From NCBI GenBank assembly GCA_019800895.1, contig JAHVKF010000003.1:1-64000 (forward strand): 64,000 bases of DNA. The letters are read 5' to 3'. Under the pieces are notes generated by a model, which was not told the origin of the DNA, ran no database searches, and was given only the letters and a program-made list of their open reading frames with translations. Origin of the DNA: Halomonas denitrificans (lineage in GTDB: Bacteria; Pseudomonadota; Gammaproteobacteria; Xanthomonadales; Wenzhouxiangellaceae). Positions 26,634-37,530 of the stretch are shown piece by piece. The number at the start of each line of letters is the position of its first letter. The stretch's first letter is position 1. The position numbers and the translations under genes were made by a program.

Positions 26634-26778
26634 AAAATCGGGTCAGGGCTACTGCGCAGGTCGCTGCCGGCGCCGTCCGGTGCTCGAAATCCTCATGCAC
26701 ATCCAAGTGCATTCCGGTTCCTGCGCTCCGGGCGTCACCGGCAGCGACCTTGCTCGCTACGCCCTGAACCGATTTTTC
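26633..26778. repeat. 146-bp imperfect palindromic element after bamC
   Basis: The ends form an inverted pair with one mismatch in 18 bases (GAAAAATCGGGTCAGGGC, 26632-26649, against 26761-26778). Similarity continues inward through GGTCGCTGCCGG, and the centre is the stem ATGCAC-atccaa-GTGCAT. It overlaps the bamC stop codon. Short antisense and sense frames here are by-products. It may serve as terminator or as a dispersed palindrome. Confidence 0.75.
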
Positions 26779-27245
26779 CTGTAGAAGCGTCGGCGCCGTC
26801 GGGTGCTCGGAATACTCATGCGCATCCCAGTGCACTGCGGTTCCTCCGTTCCGGCGGTCGCTGACCGCACCCTTGCTCGCGACGCGCTACGGCGATTTCC
26901 CCGTAGCTGTGTTTGCGTACCTGGTGCTCGAAATTCTCATGCACCCAGGGACTGTCCGTGGTCCGCGCTTCGTCGTGAGGGTTTCTCGGGTGGTGTGATC
27001 TTGAAGTCGGTGGATGGAGTTCGCCGGAGGCGTGGGAGGCCCCACGTCGAGGACGCAAGACTGACGCCGGGTTCGAGAGCGCGCCGCCCGAGGAAGCCGC
27101 AACAGAACGCGGGGGCCGCGGGCAGTCCCCAGCATTCCGGTTCCTGCGCTCCGGGCGTCACCGGCAGCGACCTTGCTCGCTACGCCCTGAACCGATTTTT
27201 CTTGTAGAAGCGCCTGCGCCGTCCGGTGCTCGGAATCCTCGTGCG
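26779..27245. repeat. Diverged partial copies of the palindromic element; no gene seen
   Basis: Units start with GTGCTCGNAATNCTCATGC at about 26810 and 26930. At 27131-27206 there is a near-identical copy of the right arm of the 26633 element (CATTCCGGTTCCTGCGCTCC onward to CGATTTTTC). The spacer 26990-27130 has no convincing coding frame. This looks like repeated insertion or unequal duplication of one element family. Confidence 0.65.
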
Positions 27246-27262
27246 CTGACCGAAGGCGGTGA

Positions 27263-27329
27263 CTGTAGGAGTGAGCCTGCGAGCGAATCCGGGGCCGGGG
27301 CCTGTTCGCTCGCAAGCTCACTCCCACAG
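27263..27329. repeat. REP-like inverted repeat, type 1
   Basis: Arms of 25 bases (CTGTAGGAGTGAGCCTGCGA onward) face each other with two mismatches around a short GC-rich centre. A second pair with the same arms is at 60476-60555. The layout resembles REP/BIME elements of Pseudomonas and relatives that are moved by RAYT transposases; no RAYT gene is in the window. Confidence 0.75.
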
Positions 27330-27370
27330 TCGGCCAATGGCTGCGCTCTCCGGCAAGATCGAAGGAATTC

Positions 27371-27491
27371 CTGTTGGAGGCCGCTTGCGGGCGAAGGGTG
27401 GGGTCGGAGAGAGCGGTTCGCGCGCAAGCGCCCTCCAACAGGCCCGAGGCTTCGATCAGGGCCCTTCTGTTGGAGGCCGCTTGCGGGCGAA
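27371..27491. repeat. REP-like inverted repeat, type 2, plus a single arm
   Basis: Arms CTGTTGGAGGCCGCTTGCGG onward (27371-27395) and its inverted partner (27417-27441) match at about 22 of 25 bases. A lone direct copy of the left arm is at 27467-27491. A partial right arm of the same type is at about 60573-60596. Confidence 0.7.
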
Positions 27492-27522
27492 GGACACGGT
27501 TCCGGAAACGGGAGTCCGGCGA

Positions 27523-30649: not shown

Positions 30650-31519
30650 ATGGCCGGCCCGCAGGTCCTGCGCAACACTGCCGAACTGGCCGCGTGGCGC
30701 GATGCGGCCGCCGGTCCGGTCCGCTTCGTGCCGACCATGGGCAACCTGCACGACGGCCACGTCGCGCTGATCGACGCGGCCCGCGAGGCCGGCGGCCGGG
30801 TGCTGGTCAGTATCTTCGTCAATCCCACCCAGTTCGGCCCGGACGAGGACTTCGATCGCTATCCGCGCACCGTCGACGAGGACCTCGCCCGCCTGGCCGG
30901 ACGCTGCGACGCGGTCTGGTTGCCGGCCATCGACGACCTCTACCCCCTCGGCCCGGACGCCGGCTTCTCGGTGCACGTGTCCGAATCGCTGGGCGGCATC
31001 CTGTGCGGCGCGCATCGGCCGGGTCATTTCGATGGCGTGGCCAATGTCGTATTGCGCCTGTTTCACCGAGTGCGGCCCGACGCCGCGGTGTTCGGCGAGA
31101 AGGATTTCCAGCAGCTGACGATTCTCCGCCGGATGGTCGAGGACTTCGGCCTGGGCATCGAGATGATCGGGCGGCCGACCGTGCGCGAGGCCGACGGCTT
31201 GGCCATGAGTTCGCGCAACCGCTACCTGACCGAACGCGAGCGGGCCGTCGCGCCCGGCCTGCATGCGACGCTGCTCGAGCTCGCCCGGCGGGCCCGGACA
31301 CTGCCCGAAGACGCGCCTGCGGGAACTTTCTCGGCCCTCGCGCAGTCTGGAAAAGAGCGTCTTGACGCCATGGGGTTCGACACCGAGTACGTCGAGTTCC
31401 GGGACGCCCGGTCGTTGGGTCCGCCGGCGGGTCATCCCCTCCGCCTGCTGGCCGCCGCAAGGCTCGGCGGGGCGCGATTGATCGACAATGTTGCAATTTC
31501 GCCACAAGCACGTCGCTAA
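30650..31519 (+). CDS. panC: Pantoate-beta-alanine ligase
   Basis: 289 residues, starting one base after the panB stop. ATP-binding motifs FVPTMGNLHDGH and SSRNRYL, plus SIFVNPTQFGPDEDF, CGAHRPGHFDGVANVV and FGEKDFQQL, are all present. It joins pantoate and beta-alanine. The panD gene that supplies beta-alanine lies 215 bases downstream, after a separate promoter and terminator. Confidence 0.97.
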   Translation: MAGPQVLRNTAELAAWRDAAAGPVRFVPTMGNLHDGHVALIDAAREAGGRVLVSIFVNPTQFGPDEDFDRYPRTVDEDLARLAGRCDAVWLPAIDDLYPLGPDAGFSVHVSESLGGILCGAHRPGHFDGVANVVLRLFHRVRPDAAVFGEKDFQQLTILRRMVEDFGLGIEMIGRPTVREADGLAMSSRNRYLTERERAVAPGLHATLLELARRARTLPEDAPAGTFSALAQSGKERLDAMGFDTEYVEFRDARSLGPPAGHPLRLLAAARLGGARLIDNVAISPQARR

Positions 31520-31533
31520 ATCGCAAATCGGGG

Positions 31534-31568
31534 TTGGAAATGCCGAAAAGTTGTGGTACAGTTACCAC
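31534..31568 (+). promoter_or_regulatory. Sigma-70 promoter with operator-like palindrome between panC and panD
   Basis: -35 TTGGAA (31534-31539), 17-base spacer, -10 TACAGT (31557-31562). A perfect palindrome, GTGGTA-cagt-TACCAC (31553-31568), covers the -10 and would let a repressor block it. The regulator is unknown. Confidence 0.65.
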
Positions 31569-31671
31569 GAACCTTGGTATTCCAGCAACGGCGATCAAGG
31601 TCAGGGCGCGAATTGAGGTACATCACTCCGACACGCTGCCTCTCCCCCTCACCGGGGAGAGGTTTTTTTTT
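31569..31671 (+). ncRNA. Candidate small RNA or panD leader of about 100 nt
   Basis: Bounded by the promoter at 31534-31562 and an intrinsic terminator at 31639-31671. There is no open frame of note. A weak 5' stem pairs ACCTTG (about 31572) with CAAGGT. It could be a free small RNA or an attenuated leader of panD (start 31735). I recognise no known family. Confidence 0.5.
31639..31671 (+). terminator. Strong intrinsic terminator before panD
   Basis: CCTCTCCCC (31639-31647) pairs perfectly with GGGGAGAGG (31654-31662) around a six-base loop and is followed by nine T. It ends either the panC transcript or the small RNA. Confidence 0.9.
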
Positions 31672-31734
31672 GCGGTGAAGGCCTCCATCTAGACATTTCC
31701 GACCGAACGCAGGCGTTCTGCACAGGAACAAGCG

Positions 31735-32115
31735 ATGCAGTTGAATCTACTGAAGGCCAAGATCCACCGGGCCACCGTGACCCATGCCGAGCTCCACTAC
31801 GAGGGTTCGTGCGCGATCGACGACGACCTCCTCGAGGCCTCGGGCATCCGGGAATACGAGCAGATTCACATCTACAACGTCGACAACGGCGAGCGCTTCG
31901 TGACCTATGCGATCCGTGCCGAGGCCGGCAGCGGCACGATCAGCGTCAACGGCGCCGCGGCCCACAAGGCCTCGGTCGGCGACCTGCTGATCATCTGCGC
32001 CTACGGGCAGTACGACAGCGCCGAGGCCGACGCTCACCGGCCCCGCCTGGTCTACCCCGACGGTGACAACCGAGTCGCCCGGATCGCCGGCGAAATTCCC
32101 GTCCAGGCCGCCTGA
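31735..32115 (+). CDS. panD: Aspartate 1-decarboxylase proenzyme
   Basis: 126 residues. Self-cleavage site Gly24-Ser25 (HYEGSCAID) yields the pyruvoyl enzyme. [28 protein letters not shown] and [21 protein letters not shown] are typical. It makes beta-alanine for pantothenate. AGGAAC lies before the ATG. Expression depends on readthrough of the terminator just upstream or on an unseen promoter in 31672-31734. Confidence 0.97.
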
Positions 32116-32144: not shown

Positions 32145-33635
32145 GTGTCGCAAAAAAACAACACTTCGCATGCCCGTTCGGGCGGCAACCCGATCGCTCG
32201 CCTGCTCGAGTCCGAGCCCGGGCGCTCGACGACCATGGTCGCCGAGAGCGGCCGCTGGCGCCTCGACGCCAGCTTGACCCCGATCCCGGTTGCGGACTGG
32301 GCCGCGAAGCCCCCGGTCGACGAGACCGCAGCCGTGCGCCGGCTGTTCTCCGGAGAGATCGTCAATGCCTCCGAGCAGCGTGCCGCGCTTCATCCGTGGC
32401 TCCGCCGCGAGGGGAGCGGGCGGCCCGAGTCCATCCGTGCCGACCAGCGACGCCTCGCGGAGACCGCGGATGCCCTGTACGCCGGCCGCACACCGGTCAG
32501 GACCCTGCTCAACGTCGCCATCGGGGGCTCCGACCTCGGGCCCCGCCTGGTCTTCGACGCCCTGGACCGGCAGGAGTCCGCGGTCGACGTTCGCTGGCTA
32601 TCGACGCTCGACGATCGCGCGCTGACCCGCCAGCTCGACGACCTGGACCCCTCCACGACAGGCCTGGTCGTCGCGTCGAAGAGCTTTTCCACGCGCGAAA
32701 CGCTGCTGCAGGCCGGGGCCGTGCGTTCCTGGCTCGGCGCCGACTGGGCCCAGCGGACCTGGGCGGCGACAGCGCGTCCCGAGCGAGCCGCGGAGTGGGG
32801 GGTCGAAGACGCGCACGTGCTGCCCTTCGACGCGTCGGTCGGCGGGCGATTCTCGGTCTGGTCTTCGATCGGCCTGGCTGCCGCGGCCGCCATCGGCCCG
32901 GCGCGCTGGGCCGAGTTTCTCGACGGTGCGGCCATTGCGGACCATGCCGTGTCCTCGGACCCGACCGGTTCGCTCGCCGGACGCCTGGCGCAAGCGATCG
33001 ACGGCCTGATCCGCGACCACGGTTTCGGTACCCTGGGCGTGGTCGCCTACGAGCCTGCCTACCGTCGCCTGGCCGGCTACCTGCAGCAGCTGATCATGGA
33101 AAGCCTGGGCAAACGCGTGGACGCGGACGGTAACGACCTGGCCGGCCCCTCGTCGCCGCTGGTCTTCGGTGGGGCCGGCACCGATCTCCAGCACTCGCTG
33201 TTCCAGACCGTGCACCAGGGGCTGCAGCGTCACCCGATGCTGCTGGTCGGCGCGGCCGATGCATCGCACAGTGCGCATGGCTTCGGCCAGGAGCAGCTGG
33301 CGCATCTACTCGGCCAGGCCCGCGCGCTTGCGCTCGGTTGCCACGACGACGACGCACAGCGGGTCCTGCCCGGTGGGAACCCTGTCCTCACGTTGCTGAC
33401 TCGCCGACCCGATGCACGCGCACTCGGCGAACTGCTGGCCCTCTGGGAGCACGCCACCTACCTCCTGGGCGTGCGCTGGGGCATCAATCCCTTCGACCAG
33501 TGGGGCGTCGAGGAGGGCAAGCGCCAGGCGGCCCGGTTCCGGGCCGTGATCGATGGCGAGCAGCGCGCCGACGACGCCGCGCTGAACGAGCTGCTGGCGT
33601 GGCTGAGCGCGCCGGAGTCGAACCCCCCGGGCTGA
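32145..33635 (+). CDS. pgi: Glucose-6-phosphate isomerase
   Basis: 496 residues with a GTG start preceded by GGAA. PGI motifs: NVAIGGSDLGPRLV, VVASKSFSTRETL, GRFSVWSSIGL, QQLIMESLGKRVD (catalytic Glu), FQTVHQG (His) and NPFDQWGVEEGKRQA (Lys). It interconverts glucose-6-phosphate and fructose-6-phosphate. A little shorter than the E. coli enzyme (about 550) but with all key segments. It lies 29 bases after panD. Confidence 0.95.
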   Translation: MSQKNNTSHARSGGNPIARLLESEPGRSTTMVAESGRWRLDASLTPIPVADWAAKPPVDETAAVRRLFSGEIVNASEQRAALHPWLRREGSGRPESIRADQRRLAETADALYAGRTPVRTLLNVAIGGSDLGPRLVFDALDRQESAVDVRWLSTLDDRALTRQLDDLDPSTTGLVVASKSFSTRETLLQAGAVRSWLGADWAQRTWAATARPERAAEWGVEDAHVLPFDASVGGRFSVWSSIGLAAAAAIGPARWAEFLDGAAIADHAVSSDPTGSLAGRLAQAIDGLIRDHGFGTLGVVAYEPAYRRLAGYLQQLIMESLGKRVDADGNDLAGPSSPLVFGGAGTDLQHSLFQTVHQGLQRHPMLLVGAADASHSAHGFGQEQLAHLLGQARALALGCHDDDAQRVLPGGNPVLTLLTRRPDARALGELLALWEHATYLLGVRWGINPFDQWGVEEGKRQAARFRAVIDGEQRADDAALNELLAWLSAPESNPPG

Positions 33636-35708: not shown

Positions 35709-35749
35709 GCTCGACTTGCGTTTCGGCGGAAGTCGGAGCGCCCAGGTTC

Positions 35750-35888
35750 GGAGAGGTGCTCGAGTGGTCGAACGGGTTCGCATGCCTCGCCGAATACGGT
35801 ACGGGACTTGTAATCTCGTACCGAGGGTTCGAACCGAGGCCGAAGGCCGAGTTCGCTGAAGCGCAGCTTCAGCCATCCCTCCCTCTCG
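35750..35888 (+). pseudogene. tRNA-Ser-like copy A with altered arms and T-loop insertion
   Basis: The 5' part (GGAGAGGTGCTCGAGTGGTC onward) and the end of the variable arm match the intact tRNA-Ser(GGA) at 36166. The anticodon arm is rebuilt: a weak stem with loop ATGCCTC (35782-35788). The variable arm is a 10-bp hairpin (35797-35823) whose loop CTTGTAA looks like a threonine anticodon loop. The T-loop is split after TTCGAA by a 42-base insert (35834-35875), after which TCCCTCCCTCTC resumes. The CCA end is missing and pair 1-72 is broken. It is unlikely to be a working tRNA, but it sits first behind the strong promoter. Confidence 0.7.
35834..35875 (+). repeat. tRNA-associated hairpin insert, short form
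   Basis: Starts CCGAG and ends CCA, placed exactly between GAA and T of the T-loop. It contains the hairpins GGCCGAAGGCC and CTGAAGC-GCA-GCTTCAG. Same family as the inserts at 36039, 36338, 36588, 36857, 37170, 37301, 37432 and 48748. Confidence 0.8.
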
Positions 35889-35954
35889 CGATCCGCAGGA
35901 TCGCCGGCCGGAGGACGCCCCCATCGACCGGGTGGCGAGATGTTGTGCAGTTTC

Positions 35955-36095
35955 GGAGAGGTGCTCGCGTGGTCGAACGGGCTCGCCTGCCTCGCCGAAT
36001 ACGGTACGGGACTTGTAATCTCGTACCGAGGGTTCGAACCGAGGCCCTTCAGGGCCGAGCTCGCTGAAGCGCAGCTTCAGCCATCCTCCCTCTCG
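35955..36095 (+). pseudogene. tRNA-Ser-like copy B with altered arms and T-loop insertion
   Basis: A tandem duplicate of copy A, 205 bases downstream, with the same rebuilt variable arm (36002-36028, loop CTTGTAA) and a putative loop CTGCCTC in the anticodon position. The T-loop holds a 45-base insert (36039-36083), after which one C is missing from the T-stem. The downstream flank (GCGATCC-GCA-GGATCGC hairpin and the following 40 bases) is shared with copy A, showing that the whole block was duplicated. Confidence 0.7.
36039..36083 (+). repeat. tRNA-associated hairpin insert
   Basis: 45 bases, CCGAG at the left and CCA at the right, between GAA and T of copy B's T-loop. The first hairpin is GGCCCTTCAGGGCC and the second CTGAAGC-GCA-GCTTCAG, so the first stem differs from copy A while the second is identical. 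Confidence 0.8.
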
Positions 36096-36165: not shown

Positions 36166-36256
<91 letters not shown>

Positions 36257-36295
36257 GAAATGAAATGCCCCGCCTCGCGCGGGGCTTTTCATTTC
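36257..36295 (+). terminator. Intrinsic terminator of tRNA-Ser(GGA)
   Basis: A GCCCCGC/GCGGGGC core is extended by GAAATGAAA/TTTCATTTC with one mismatch, giving a near-perfect 16-pair palindrome with T-runs usable from either side. Confidence 0.85.
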
Positions 36296-36329
36296 TACCG
36301 AAGAGGGAGACTACGGATGCGAACCCCCC
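36291..36329 (-). repeat. Inverted copy of the tRNA-Ser(GGA) 3' end
   Basis: Read on the minus strand this resembles the T-loop and acceptor of the upstream tRNA (GGGTTCGCATCC, then TCCCTCT and CGG), with the T-loop A replaced by C. With the tRNA and its terminator it makes a long palindrome. Confidence 0.65.
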
Positions 36330-36477
36330 GGTTCGAACCGAGGCTCGCAGAGCCGAGCTCGATGCGATCGGGCGCAGCCCGACTCGCACCCGAAGGGCAA
36401 GCGACAAAGTCGCGCCGTCCATCCCTCCCTCTCCGCCAGAAATAAAATGCCCCGCCCCGTGCGGGGCTTTTCATTTC
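36330..36477 (+). repeat. Direct tRNA-Ser 3'-end copy with long insert and terminator
   Basis: GGTTCGAA, an 84-base insert (36338-36421, CCGAG to GTCCA), then TCCCTCCCTCTCCGCCA (36422-36438) and a second copy of the terminator (36439-36477). There is no 5' half, so no tRNA can form. Confidence 0.75.
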
Positions 36478-36725
36478 TACCGAAGAGGGATGGCGGTTCG
36501 AACCCTGCAGGCTCGAATGAGCCGAACCTTCTCAGGATGCTTCGATCTGCGAGAGGCAATTGAGCCCATCGGAACAAGGGGTTCGAACCGAGGCCGAAGG
36601 CCGAGCTCGATGCGATCGCGCGCAGCGCGACTCGCACCCGAAGAGCAAGCGACGCAGTCGCGCCGTCCATCCCTCCCTCTCCGCCAGAAACGGAAAAGCC
36701 CCGCGATGCGGGGTTTTTTCGTTTC
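36478..36725 (+). repeat. Second 3'-end unit: spacer, T-loop with insert, acceptor end, terminator
   Basis: After a spacer without recognisable content (36490-36580), GGTTCGAA is followed by an 82-base insert (36588-36669), TCCCTCCCTCTCCGCCA (36670-36686) and a third terminator (36687-36725, GCCCCGC-GAT-GCGGGG with T6). The insert matches that at 36338 closely but with compensating changes in its stems. Confidence 0.72.
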
Positions 36726-36833
36726 TAACGACGAGGAGGGGATGAGAACCCGGGTTCGAACCGAGGCCCGCAGAATTGCAGTTTCTTCGACCCGTCAGCG
36801 GCTCGGAGCCGAATAAGGCACAATCCAGAATAC
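36726..36833. repeat. Degraded inverted and direct tRNA 3'-end remnants
   Basis: GAGGAGGGGATGAGAACCC resembles the inverted 3' end. It is followed by GGGTTCGAACCGAGGC, the left end of an insert that is then lost. No gene is seen. CACAAT at 36819-36824 may be a weak -10 for the next tRNA copy. Confidence 0.5.
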
Positions 36834-36981
36834 GGAGAGGTGGCAGAGCGGTTGAACCGAGCGCAGCGAGCTCGATGTGCAGGCCGCGCAGCGGCCGGAG
36901 CAACCCGGAGCGCAGCGTAGGGCAAGCGCCGCAGGCGCGCAGTCCATGCACCGGTCTCGCGGCTCGCAGAGAGCCGCCGGT
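36834..36981 (+). pseudogene. tRNA-Ser(TGA) copy C broken in the D-loop and anticodon arm
   Basis: GGAGAGGTGGCAGAGCGGTTGAA matches the intact tRNA-Ser(TGA) at 37003 (36834-36856). A 90-base insert follows (36857-36946), then TGCACCGGTCT resumes exactly. The anticodon loop is next replaced by a GCGGCTC/GAGCCGC hairpin and the 3' half is missing. The upstream CACAAT-CAG flank is shared with the intact gene, so the duplication included promoter sequence. Confidence 0.75.
36857..36946 (+). repeat. tRNA-associated hairpin insert in a D-loop
   Basis: 90 bases from CCGAG to GTCCA, lying between GGTTGAA and TGCACC. It contains several hairpins with GCA loops (GGCCGC-GCA-GCGGCC, GCGCC-GCA-GGCGC). This is the only insert of the family in a D-loop; it uses the same GAA^T position as the T-loop inserts. 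Confidence 0.8.
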
Positions 36982-37002
36982 TCGGTCACAATTCAGTTCA
37001 CC

Positions 37003-37130
<128 letters not shown>

Positions 37131-37530
37131 TGGCGGAGAAGGTGACCCGGATGCGGACCCCCGTTCGAACCGAGCCGCGAAGCGGCGAGCTCACGAGCGC
37201 GCAGCGCGAGTCATCCCACCCGCCTCATCAAACGCCCCGCGAACGCGGGGTTTTTCGTGCCTGGCGGAGAGGGTGACCCGGATGCGAACCCCCGTTCGAA
37301 CCGAGCCGCGAAGCGGCGAGCTCACGAGCGCGCAGCGCGAGTCATCCCACCCGCCTTTCGAAACGCCCCGCGAACGCGGGGTTTTTCGTGCCTGGCGGAG
37401 AGGGTGACCCGGATGCGAACCCCCGTTCGAACCGAGCCGCGAAGCGGCGAGCTCACGAGCGCGCAGCGCGAGTCATCCCACCCGCCTTTCGAAAGGCCCC
37501 TCATCCGCGGGGTTTTTTATCTGGCGGAGA
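37131..37530 (+). repeat. 131-bp tandem units of inverted plus direct tRNA-Ser 3' ends with terminators
   Basis: The motif CGTTCGAACCGAG occurs at 37162, 37293 and 37424, an exact 131-bp period. Each unit holds an inverted tRNA 3' end (TGGCGGAGA(A/G)GGTGACCCGG), then GTTCGAA, an identical 44-base insert (37170-37213, 37301-37344, 37432-37475), TCCCACCCGCC and a terminator. The last terminator differs (CCCC-TCATCCG-CGGGG). No CCA-ending functional tRNA is formed. Confidence 0.85.

Follow-up and report, generated by a model that had tools for sequence, protein, structure and literature searches.

Positions 31534–31671 of the window, i.e., of the whole 64,000-nt stretch of DNA that was analyzed, are likely to be the gene of an autonomous, trans-acting regulatory small RNA (sRNA) of about 103 nt, with a sigma-70-type extended −10 promoter and a strong intrinsic terminator. 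We base this reading of the sequence on a −10 element that recurs in homologs, a transcript that is more conserved than both its flanks and panC, a 5′ hairpin and terminator that covary, a conserved core, the absence of a reading frame that is kept, and the lack of dependence on any one downstream gene. The RNA defines a family that has no match in Rfam and, within a single order, has members in 11 families. As judged by comparison of sequences, the family is new and its kind, the conserved autonomous sRNA gene, is already known.

The gene lies on the forward strand between two protein-coding genes that are not part of it, all neighbors being assigned by open reading frame and homology and all being on the same strand. 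Upstream is an ORF at 30650–31519, which we take to be panC from pathway knowledge and from an earlier note on this DNA; downstream are ORFs at 31735–32115 and 32145–33635, presumably panD and pgi. The earlier note had placed a −35/−10 pair, a palindrome and a terminator between panC and panD, and on re-reading the sequence every coordinate proved correct. Specifically, the panC stop codon lies 15 nt ahead of the start of a weakly conserved −35-like hexamer, TTGGAA (31534–31539), which is separated by a 17-nt spacer from the −10 hexamer TACAGT (31557–31562). The latter is part of an extended −10 element, TGGTACAGT (31554–31562; TGG-TACAGT, of the form TGnTAnnnT), that recurs in homologs, and the palindrome GTGGTA-CAGT-TACCAC covers 31553–31568. 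The predicted transcript spans 31569–31671, with its start placed from the −10 box and its end from the terminator. It begins with a 5′ stem-loop, ACCUUG...CAAGGU (31571–31601), recognized from covariation and single folds, and continues with two core motifs recognized from the homolog loci, core motif 1, CAGGGCGC (31602–31609), and core motif 2, GGUACAUCACUCCGA (31617–31631), the second of which contains the proposed seed UCACUCC (31623–31629). The intrinsic terminator (31639–31671), supported by sequence and covariation, has a 9-bp stem, a 6-nt loop and nine T: the stem-loop CCTCTCCCC-CTCACC-GGGGAGAGG corresponds to 31639–31662 and the T run to 31663–31671.

Taken alone, the promoter, terminator and palindrome are modest signals, and the unit rises above chance because it is conserved. 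The −35/−10 pair agrees with the consensus at 8 of 12 positions, which is below the cut of 9 of 12 in our scan, so that it was not listed there. Between 28000 and 36000 three terminator-like sites are listed where 3.4 are expected, two of them being nested versions of the terminator at 31639–31671. The 103-nt transcript from 31569 folds with a z of −3.4, but the 99 nt begun four bases later (31573) only with −1.9.

A blastn search with positions 31519–31735 against 61 genomes gives a match at E ≤ 1 in 56 genomes and at E < 1e-7 in 34, namely all six genomes of the genus, 32 of the 37 family genomes and two that belong to family f8. For five genus mates the transcript is 96, 94, 92, 88 and 82% identical to the window and the promoter 56–91%, while the 45 bases 3′ of the terminator are 48–60% identical, against a shuffled baseline of 50%. 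At the nucleotide level, panC is 66–78% and panD 73–88% identical in four genus mates. With 82–96% for the RNA compared with 66–78% for panC, the RNA is thus under more constraint than panC.

Two covariance models, R1 for the full RNA and R2 for its 3′ part, were run on 299 genomes of the order. At E ≤ 0.01, R1 finds 123 of these genomes and matches the window at 31567–31671, and R2 finds 131 and matches the window at 31592–31671. The 39 training sequences of R2 were chosen by eye among the R1 hits, and the expression used to trim them demanded CAGGGCGC and TCACTC, so the invariance of these motifs in the training alignment is partly built in. At E < 1e-9, a rough value from a short calibration with strict filters and 15 candidates scored per genome, R2 matches 111 of the 299 genomes, as counted by hand with part of the hits read as sequence; 39 of these were in the training set and 72 were not. 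They represent 11 families, including Wenzhouxiangellaceae (f1 36, f2 2, f3 3, f4 9, f5 4, f6 1, f7 2, f8 34, f10 1, f11 8 and f12 11 genomes). The 20 of the 131 genomes with E > 1e-9 were left out of the count; L104 and L186, from the same family and uncounted for this reason, are probably diverged members. Weak model hits were also dropped before counting, namely L108, L111, L114 and L119–L123 (G038 and G051 have true hits elsewhere), the f9 hits L179, L184 and L185, the class hits L165–L169, and L304–L307. These lack the core; L167 and L306 are partly core-like, but a terminator is missing in both. Chance pattern matches, namely L132 and the second of the hits in L181, were discarded.

The R1 and R2 searches of the order genomes did not find the RNA in most of f2, in f9 or in part of f12. 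A third model with more permissive scoring, applied to 35 genomes chosen mainly as negatives, returned only diverged or seedless copies: matches at E ≤ 0.1 occur in 15 of the 35, and among the 19 best places, which were read, the seed is present only in G008 and G012, and G162 has the first motif with the seed lost. Over 369 genomes of the class, a few of them members of the order, R2 gives one convincing homolog outside the order, G303, also between panC and panD; the exact pattern of the second branch described below occurs in two of the 369, where one occurrence is due to chance. In a search of 398 phylum genomes, R2 gives no homolog outside the order, the three weak matches (E 4e-5 to 1e-4) being without the seed. 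The f1-type core is present in 27 stretches of named records; these are assigned to Wenzhouxiangella or Wenzhouxiangellaceae, among them W. limi strain C33, W. sediminis strain XDB06 and Wenzhouxiangella sp. 15190, and otherwise are MAGs named more broadly or differently, in one case as Alphaproteobacteria.

Both UACAUCACUCC and CAGGGCGC are present in all of the 30 blastn loci, which were compared in one orientation and taken without regard to motifs. In the other branch UCGUCACUC is found in 34 of 34 chosen sequences, for which the seed was itself a criterion of selection. All branch counts refer to the 78 distinct homolog sequences that fit our expression, which L173, L174 and L178 did not, so these three were excluded, as they were from the context counts below. 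The 78 fall into two branches, with CAUCACUC in 46 (CAUC-type) and CGUCACUC in 32 (UCGUC-type). Variants of core motif 1 are CAGGGCGU (L171, L174), CAGGGUGU (L189) and GGCGGUGCGC (L164), and the seed is lost in L178 (f12). A sharp seed with two variants (ACAUCACUCC and AUCGUCACUCC) and an apparent loss in part of the order makes it feasible to find targets by comparison and experiment. A diverged relative is also seen between panC and panD in L105 and L106, from genus g5 of the same family: it carries CACTCC in its 5′ part, lacks the usual seed and ends in the same kind of terminator. From its sequence, this copy may represent decay or a re-targeting of the RNA.

The structure was evaluated on an alignment of 30 sequences from families f1 and f8. 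For the 5′ helix (ACCUU/AAGGU) and the terminator together, 98.4% of the cells are paired, and 7 of 15 pairs and 19 cells have changes on both sides, which is reached by 0 of 500 shuffles, a figure that is not a probability since the sequences are related. The 5′ helix alone, with five pairs counted, has 98% of its cells paired and changes on both sides in three of the five, as has the terminator stem in 4 of 10 pairs. Counting the types of pair gives a less striking result, which 9 of 500 shuffles reach, and sliding the pairing partners lowers every measure of covariation. RNAalifold alone favored another pairing, of the same 5′ arm with a later CAGGG, but we prefer the CAAGG partner because it is supported by compensatory changes; the 5′ arm may possibly switch between the two pairings. 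Single folds of eight homologs mostly give the 5′ hairpin and the terminator, and their z ranges from −1.9 for the window to −4.3. Many second-branch homologs can enclose the seed in a small hairpin, AAUCG-UCACUC-CGAUU, the stem of which is not kept everywhere. The T run is at least 7 long in 46 of 46 CAUC-type and 29 of 32 UCGUC-type homologs. The comparison with relatives proposed in the earlier note thus comes out in favor of the stem and the T run, with the exact palindrome kept only in part of one branch. Its description of a complete small transcription unit, possibly a small RNA, is upheld to the extent that the −10 box, the transcript core and the terminator recur across the order.

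An sRNA gene of this form could act as follows. Positions 31534–31671 would be transcribed as an sRNA, the U tail of which would be bound by Hfq, and the seed UCACUCC, here within CAUCACUCC, would pair with GGAGUGA where target mRNAs have their Shine-Dalgarno sequence and start codon, so that ribosome binding or the start of translation would be blocked. The genome encodes Hfq (105.5 bits) and the RNA gene ends in a T9 tail; the sRNA is possibly Hfq-bound. The complement of CAUCACUCC in f1 and f8 is GGAGUGAUG, a sequence that can represent a Shine-Dalgarno sequence plus start codon, or a stop-start overlap.

Target sites were searched for by complementarity. The complement of the f1 seed (a 14-mer, with at most two mismatches) has more hits than a reversed-pattern control in each of six genomes; in the genome of the window itself there are 12 + 9 hits against 3 + 1 in the control, with the sRNA gene itself counted. 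Among the part of the 14-mer hits that was read, many are inside genes, including one in-gene site found in two genus mates (L214, L216), and a few are near possible starts, for example: L200 of G018 lies ∼13 nt before an ORF that we take to be nuoF, and L229 of G017 is associated with an ORF of 221 aa. The sequence GGAGTGATG occurs 15 times in the same genome as the window, against 0 for the reversed control; these 15 include the sRNA gene, three copies that make up a repeat cluster, and L237, L248 and L250, which coincide with plausible starts or precede them closely. For the other branch, a 19-mer complement was searched in 12 genomes; it finds the sRNA gene in all 12, plus 11 hits with three mismatches, and no two of these 11 loci are alike by blastn. 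No shared mRNA target was found in the few genomes searched, where part of the hits were read. Duplex energies are −24.9 to −52.2 for five candidates, compared with −30.1 to −33.3 for panC, panD and pgi, but with intramolecular competition left out and targets of unequal length they are no basis for a conclusion.

The sequence UCACUCC resembles the 3′ end of 16S rRNA. A tentative and rather doubtful extension of the trans-acting reading would make the RNA, mostly single-copy and with two strongly conserved motifs, a core riboregulator of the whole order, a mimic of the anti-Shine-Dalgarno end of 16S rRNA that would control many mRNAs at GGAGUGA(UG) starts, its usual place between the pan genes and pgi linking coenzyme-A supply and glycolysis to the control of translation. 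It is also conceivable, but unlikely, that the core motifs do not pair with mRNAs and instead titrate an RNA-binding protein or another sRNA, the RNA being a protein-binding or sponge RNA. The presence of two separate conserved motifs (CAGGGCGC and UCACUCC) would fit such a role, as would the lack of an mRNA target in the searches made. However, a hairpin, a linker, a seed and a U-tailed terminator, in the arrangement found here, is the layout of base-pairing sRNAs.

The genomic context was compared at 77 loci, two chance matches having been dropped, with flanks mostly of 1.5–2 kb and a few much shorter; the next gene was called from the longest non-overlapping ORFs of at least 80 aa. We find panC upstream in 42 of the 77 loci and none in the upstream flank of the other 35, where some flanks are short. 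Downstream, panD follows in the same direction in 35 loci and is missing from the flank in 42, and pgi is present in 63. Nine loci have neither panD nor pgi downstream. In six of these nine the next gene is convergent, encoding a HerA-type ATPase (L091, L124, L129), QueG (L113, L176) or MurB (L175); at L188 a leucyl-tRNA synthetase gene follows in the same direction; and the other two of the nine are L097 and L126. Shortly 3′ of the RNA gene in L097, positions 2198–2355 match group II intron D1-D4 with 37.5 bits (Rfam RF02001), so a mobile element may have inserted there, past the terminator.

These neighbors bear on the suggestion in the earlier note of an attenuator tuning beta-alanine supply. 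More generally, the unit could be a 5′ leader in which an attenuator, or a terminator of riboswitch-like type, controls read-through into panD or pgi in cis. The promoter and terminator do lie ahead of the gene, with panD in the same direction here and in the 35 loci mentioned, and pgi in 63. The 42 loci with no panD in the flank, a few of these flanks being short, and the convergent neighbors nevertheless show that the RNA is not the leader of one gene, and they rule out attenuation of panD as the general function; nor is there a clear antiterminator in the single folds examined. We consider a leader role of this sort quite improbable. That the RNA mostly adjoins panC, panD or pgi does count against a trans-acting role and could hint at a local one; the usual position is mostly inherited gene order. 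For the autonomous sRNA gene, an own promoter and terminator and independence of the neighbors are indicated by the recurring −10, the T run and the varied neighbors.

The extended −10 sequence TGGTAnnnT lies no further than 130 bases ahead of the core in all 46 CAUC-type homologs and in 21 of the 32 of UCGUC type, the other 11 of the latter being without it; by simple arithmetic it would occur by chance in a 130-base span about 3% of the time. A −35 box with at least four of six matches to TTGACA at a spacing of 15–19 occurs in 37 of the 46 CAUC-type sequences, compared with only 3 of the 21 scorable UCGUC-type ones, and is thus poorly conserved in the second branch. The recurrence of the extended −10 is one argument against the RNA being the terminator or 3′ UTR of the panBC operon, released by processing of panBC mRNA and not made from its own promoter. 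Such an origin is suggested by the −35 box beginning just 15 nt past the panC stop codon in this genome and by panC being upstream in 42 of 77 loci, but the 35 loci without panC in the upstream flank, some of them short, speak against it. So does the conservation profile: the 100 bases begun 130 bases before GTGGTA are 59–73% identical in the five genus mates, less than the promoter stretch in four of the five (74–91%; the fifth has 62 vs. 56%) and less than the RNA in all five (82–96%). An origin in the panBC transcript accordingly has little probability.

The promoter could also be a regulated one, with the palindrome being the true operator of a dedicated repressor. The palindrome is a perfect 6 + 6 repeat lying over the −10, only 0.02 copies of this very sequence are expected in the window with at most one mismatch, and its exact form is present in 22 of the 46 CAUC-type homologs. 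Against this, the window contains 35 perfect 6-4-6 inverted repeats, the genome holds a single exact copy of GTGGTA-CAGT-TACCAC and no second one, and none of the 32 UCGUC-type homologs has it. The spacing is not fixed either: ACCA follows TGGT after 9 bases in 37 and after 6 bases in 22 of the 46 CAUC-type homologs, some of which have both, and after 9 bases in 9 and 6 bases in 3 of the 21 UCGUC-type homologs with the box. More likely, the palindrome is just what the −10 box gives rise to, the left half being the extended −10 and the right half the transcript start, which largely accounts for it. The operator-like character claimed in the earlier note is therefore weak, and we hold a dedicated operator to be hardly probable, though a repressor site may exist in part of the CAUC branch.

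That the unit encodes a small protein is extremely improbable: a 52-aa ORF (31534–31692) does span it in the window, so the earlier description of about 100 transcribed bases without a gene needs this correction, and an ORF of at least 40 codons that starts at most 75 nt before the core is present in 54 of the 78 homologs, but these ORFs are split by frame relative to the core (24, 20 and 39 of 78, so that even the best frame is open in only 39), one- and two-base insertions separate close relatives, and ORFs wholly inside the transcript are shorter than 20 codons in 29 of 30. With no frame kept across homologs, the longer ORFs running through the terminator appear from the sequences to be chance products of GC-rich genomes, and the absence of a gene stands in that sense.

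To our knowledge, few sRNAs have been studied in this order outside Xanthomonas. Enterobacterial Hfq-dependent trans-acting sRNAs have their own promoter, a short seed that can cover the Shine-Dalgarno sequence, an intrinsic terminator and a long U tail; the layout predicted here is alike by sequence, without a match to any Rfam family. The pan RNA motif of Rfam acts in cis and precedes pantothenate genes in phyla other than this one. It has the pan-gene neighborhood in common with our RNA, which however matches no Rfam family at threshold and also occurs without panD and before convergent genes. Specifically, neither the window copy of the RNA nor 18 homolog loci brought any Rfam 15 family to its gathering threshold. 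The best sub-threshold score in the window stretch is PyrR with 18.6 bits against a threshold of 54, and the sub-threshold matches to PyrR, Hrs1 and whalefall-1 are so far below that we take them as chance. No report of the RNA appears among the open-licence PubMed Central papers listed for Wenzhouxiangella, Xanthomonas, Stenotrophomonas, Xanthomonadales or panC/panD/pgi, and the gene names do not occur in PMC3039613. A further comparison is with sX13 of Xanthomonas campestris pv. vesicatoria, an intergenic sRNA of 115 nt whose three stems carry CCCC or CCCCC loops and which acts independently of Hfq through C-rich motifs on G-rich sites near translation starts (PMC3771888). The two RNAs are alike in being intergenic, of similar length and with C-rich motifs acting near starts, which is observed for sX13 and would be the case here. 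They differ in that the present RNA has one 5′ hairpin plus the terminator, the seed UCACUCC and CAGGGCGC, with CCCC in the window only in the terminator arm. The three C-loop stems are not seen here; sX13 is a different RNA with a comparable way of working.

The window also contains several families of repeats. At 26700–27500 there are direct repeats 76–115 nt long, together with inverted repeats of REP-like type such as CTGTAGGAGTGAGCCTGCGAGCGAA and its relatives, and similar repeats bearing GGAGTGATG cluster elsewhere in the genome, at G000:C3 152510–153428. These contain letters like CTCACTCC and GGAGTGAG, probably by coincidence with the seed. At 36239–37300 there are repeated tRNA-Ser 3′ ends with terminator-like sequence (a 70-nt family with four copies) and further 71–91-nt repeats around two tRNA-Ser genes. 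Two 99-nt copies at 35743–35841 and 35948–36046 are 96% identical, and their start resembles the tRNA-Ser gene at 36166–36256; they are not called as tRNA. This part of the window is rich in repeats, and the two copies may be duplicates of tRNA-Ser that have degenerated.
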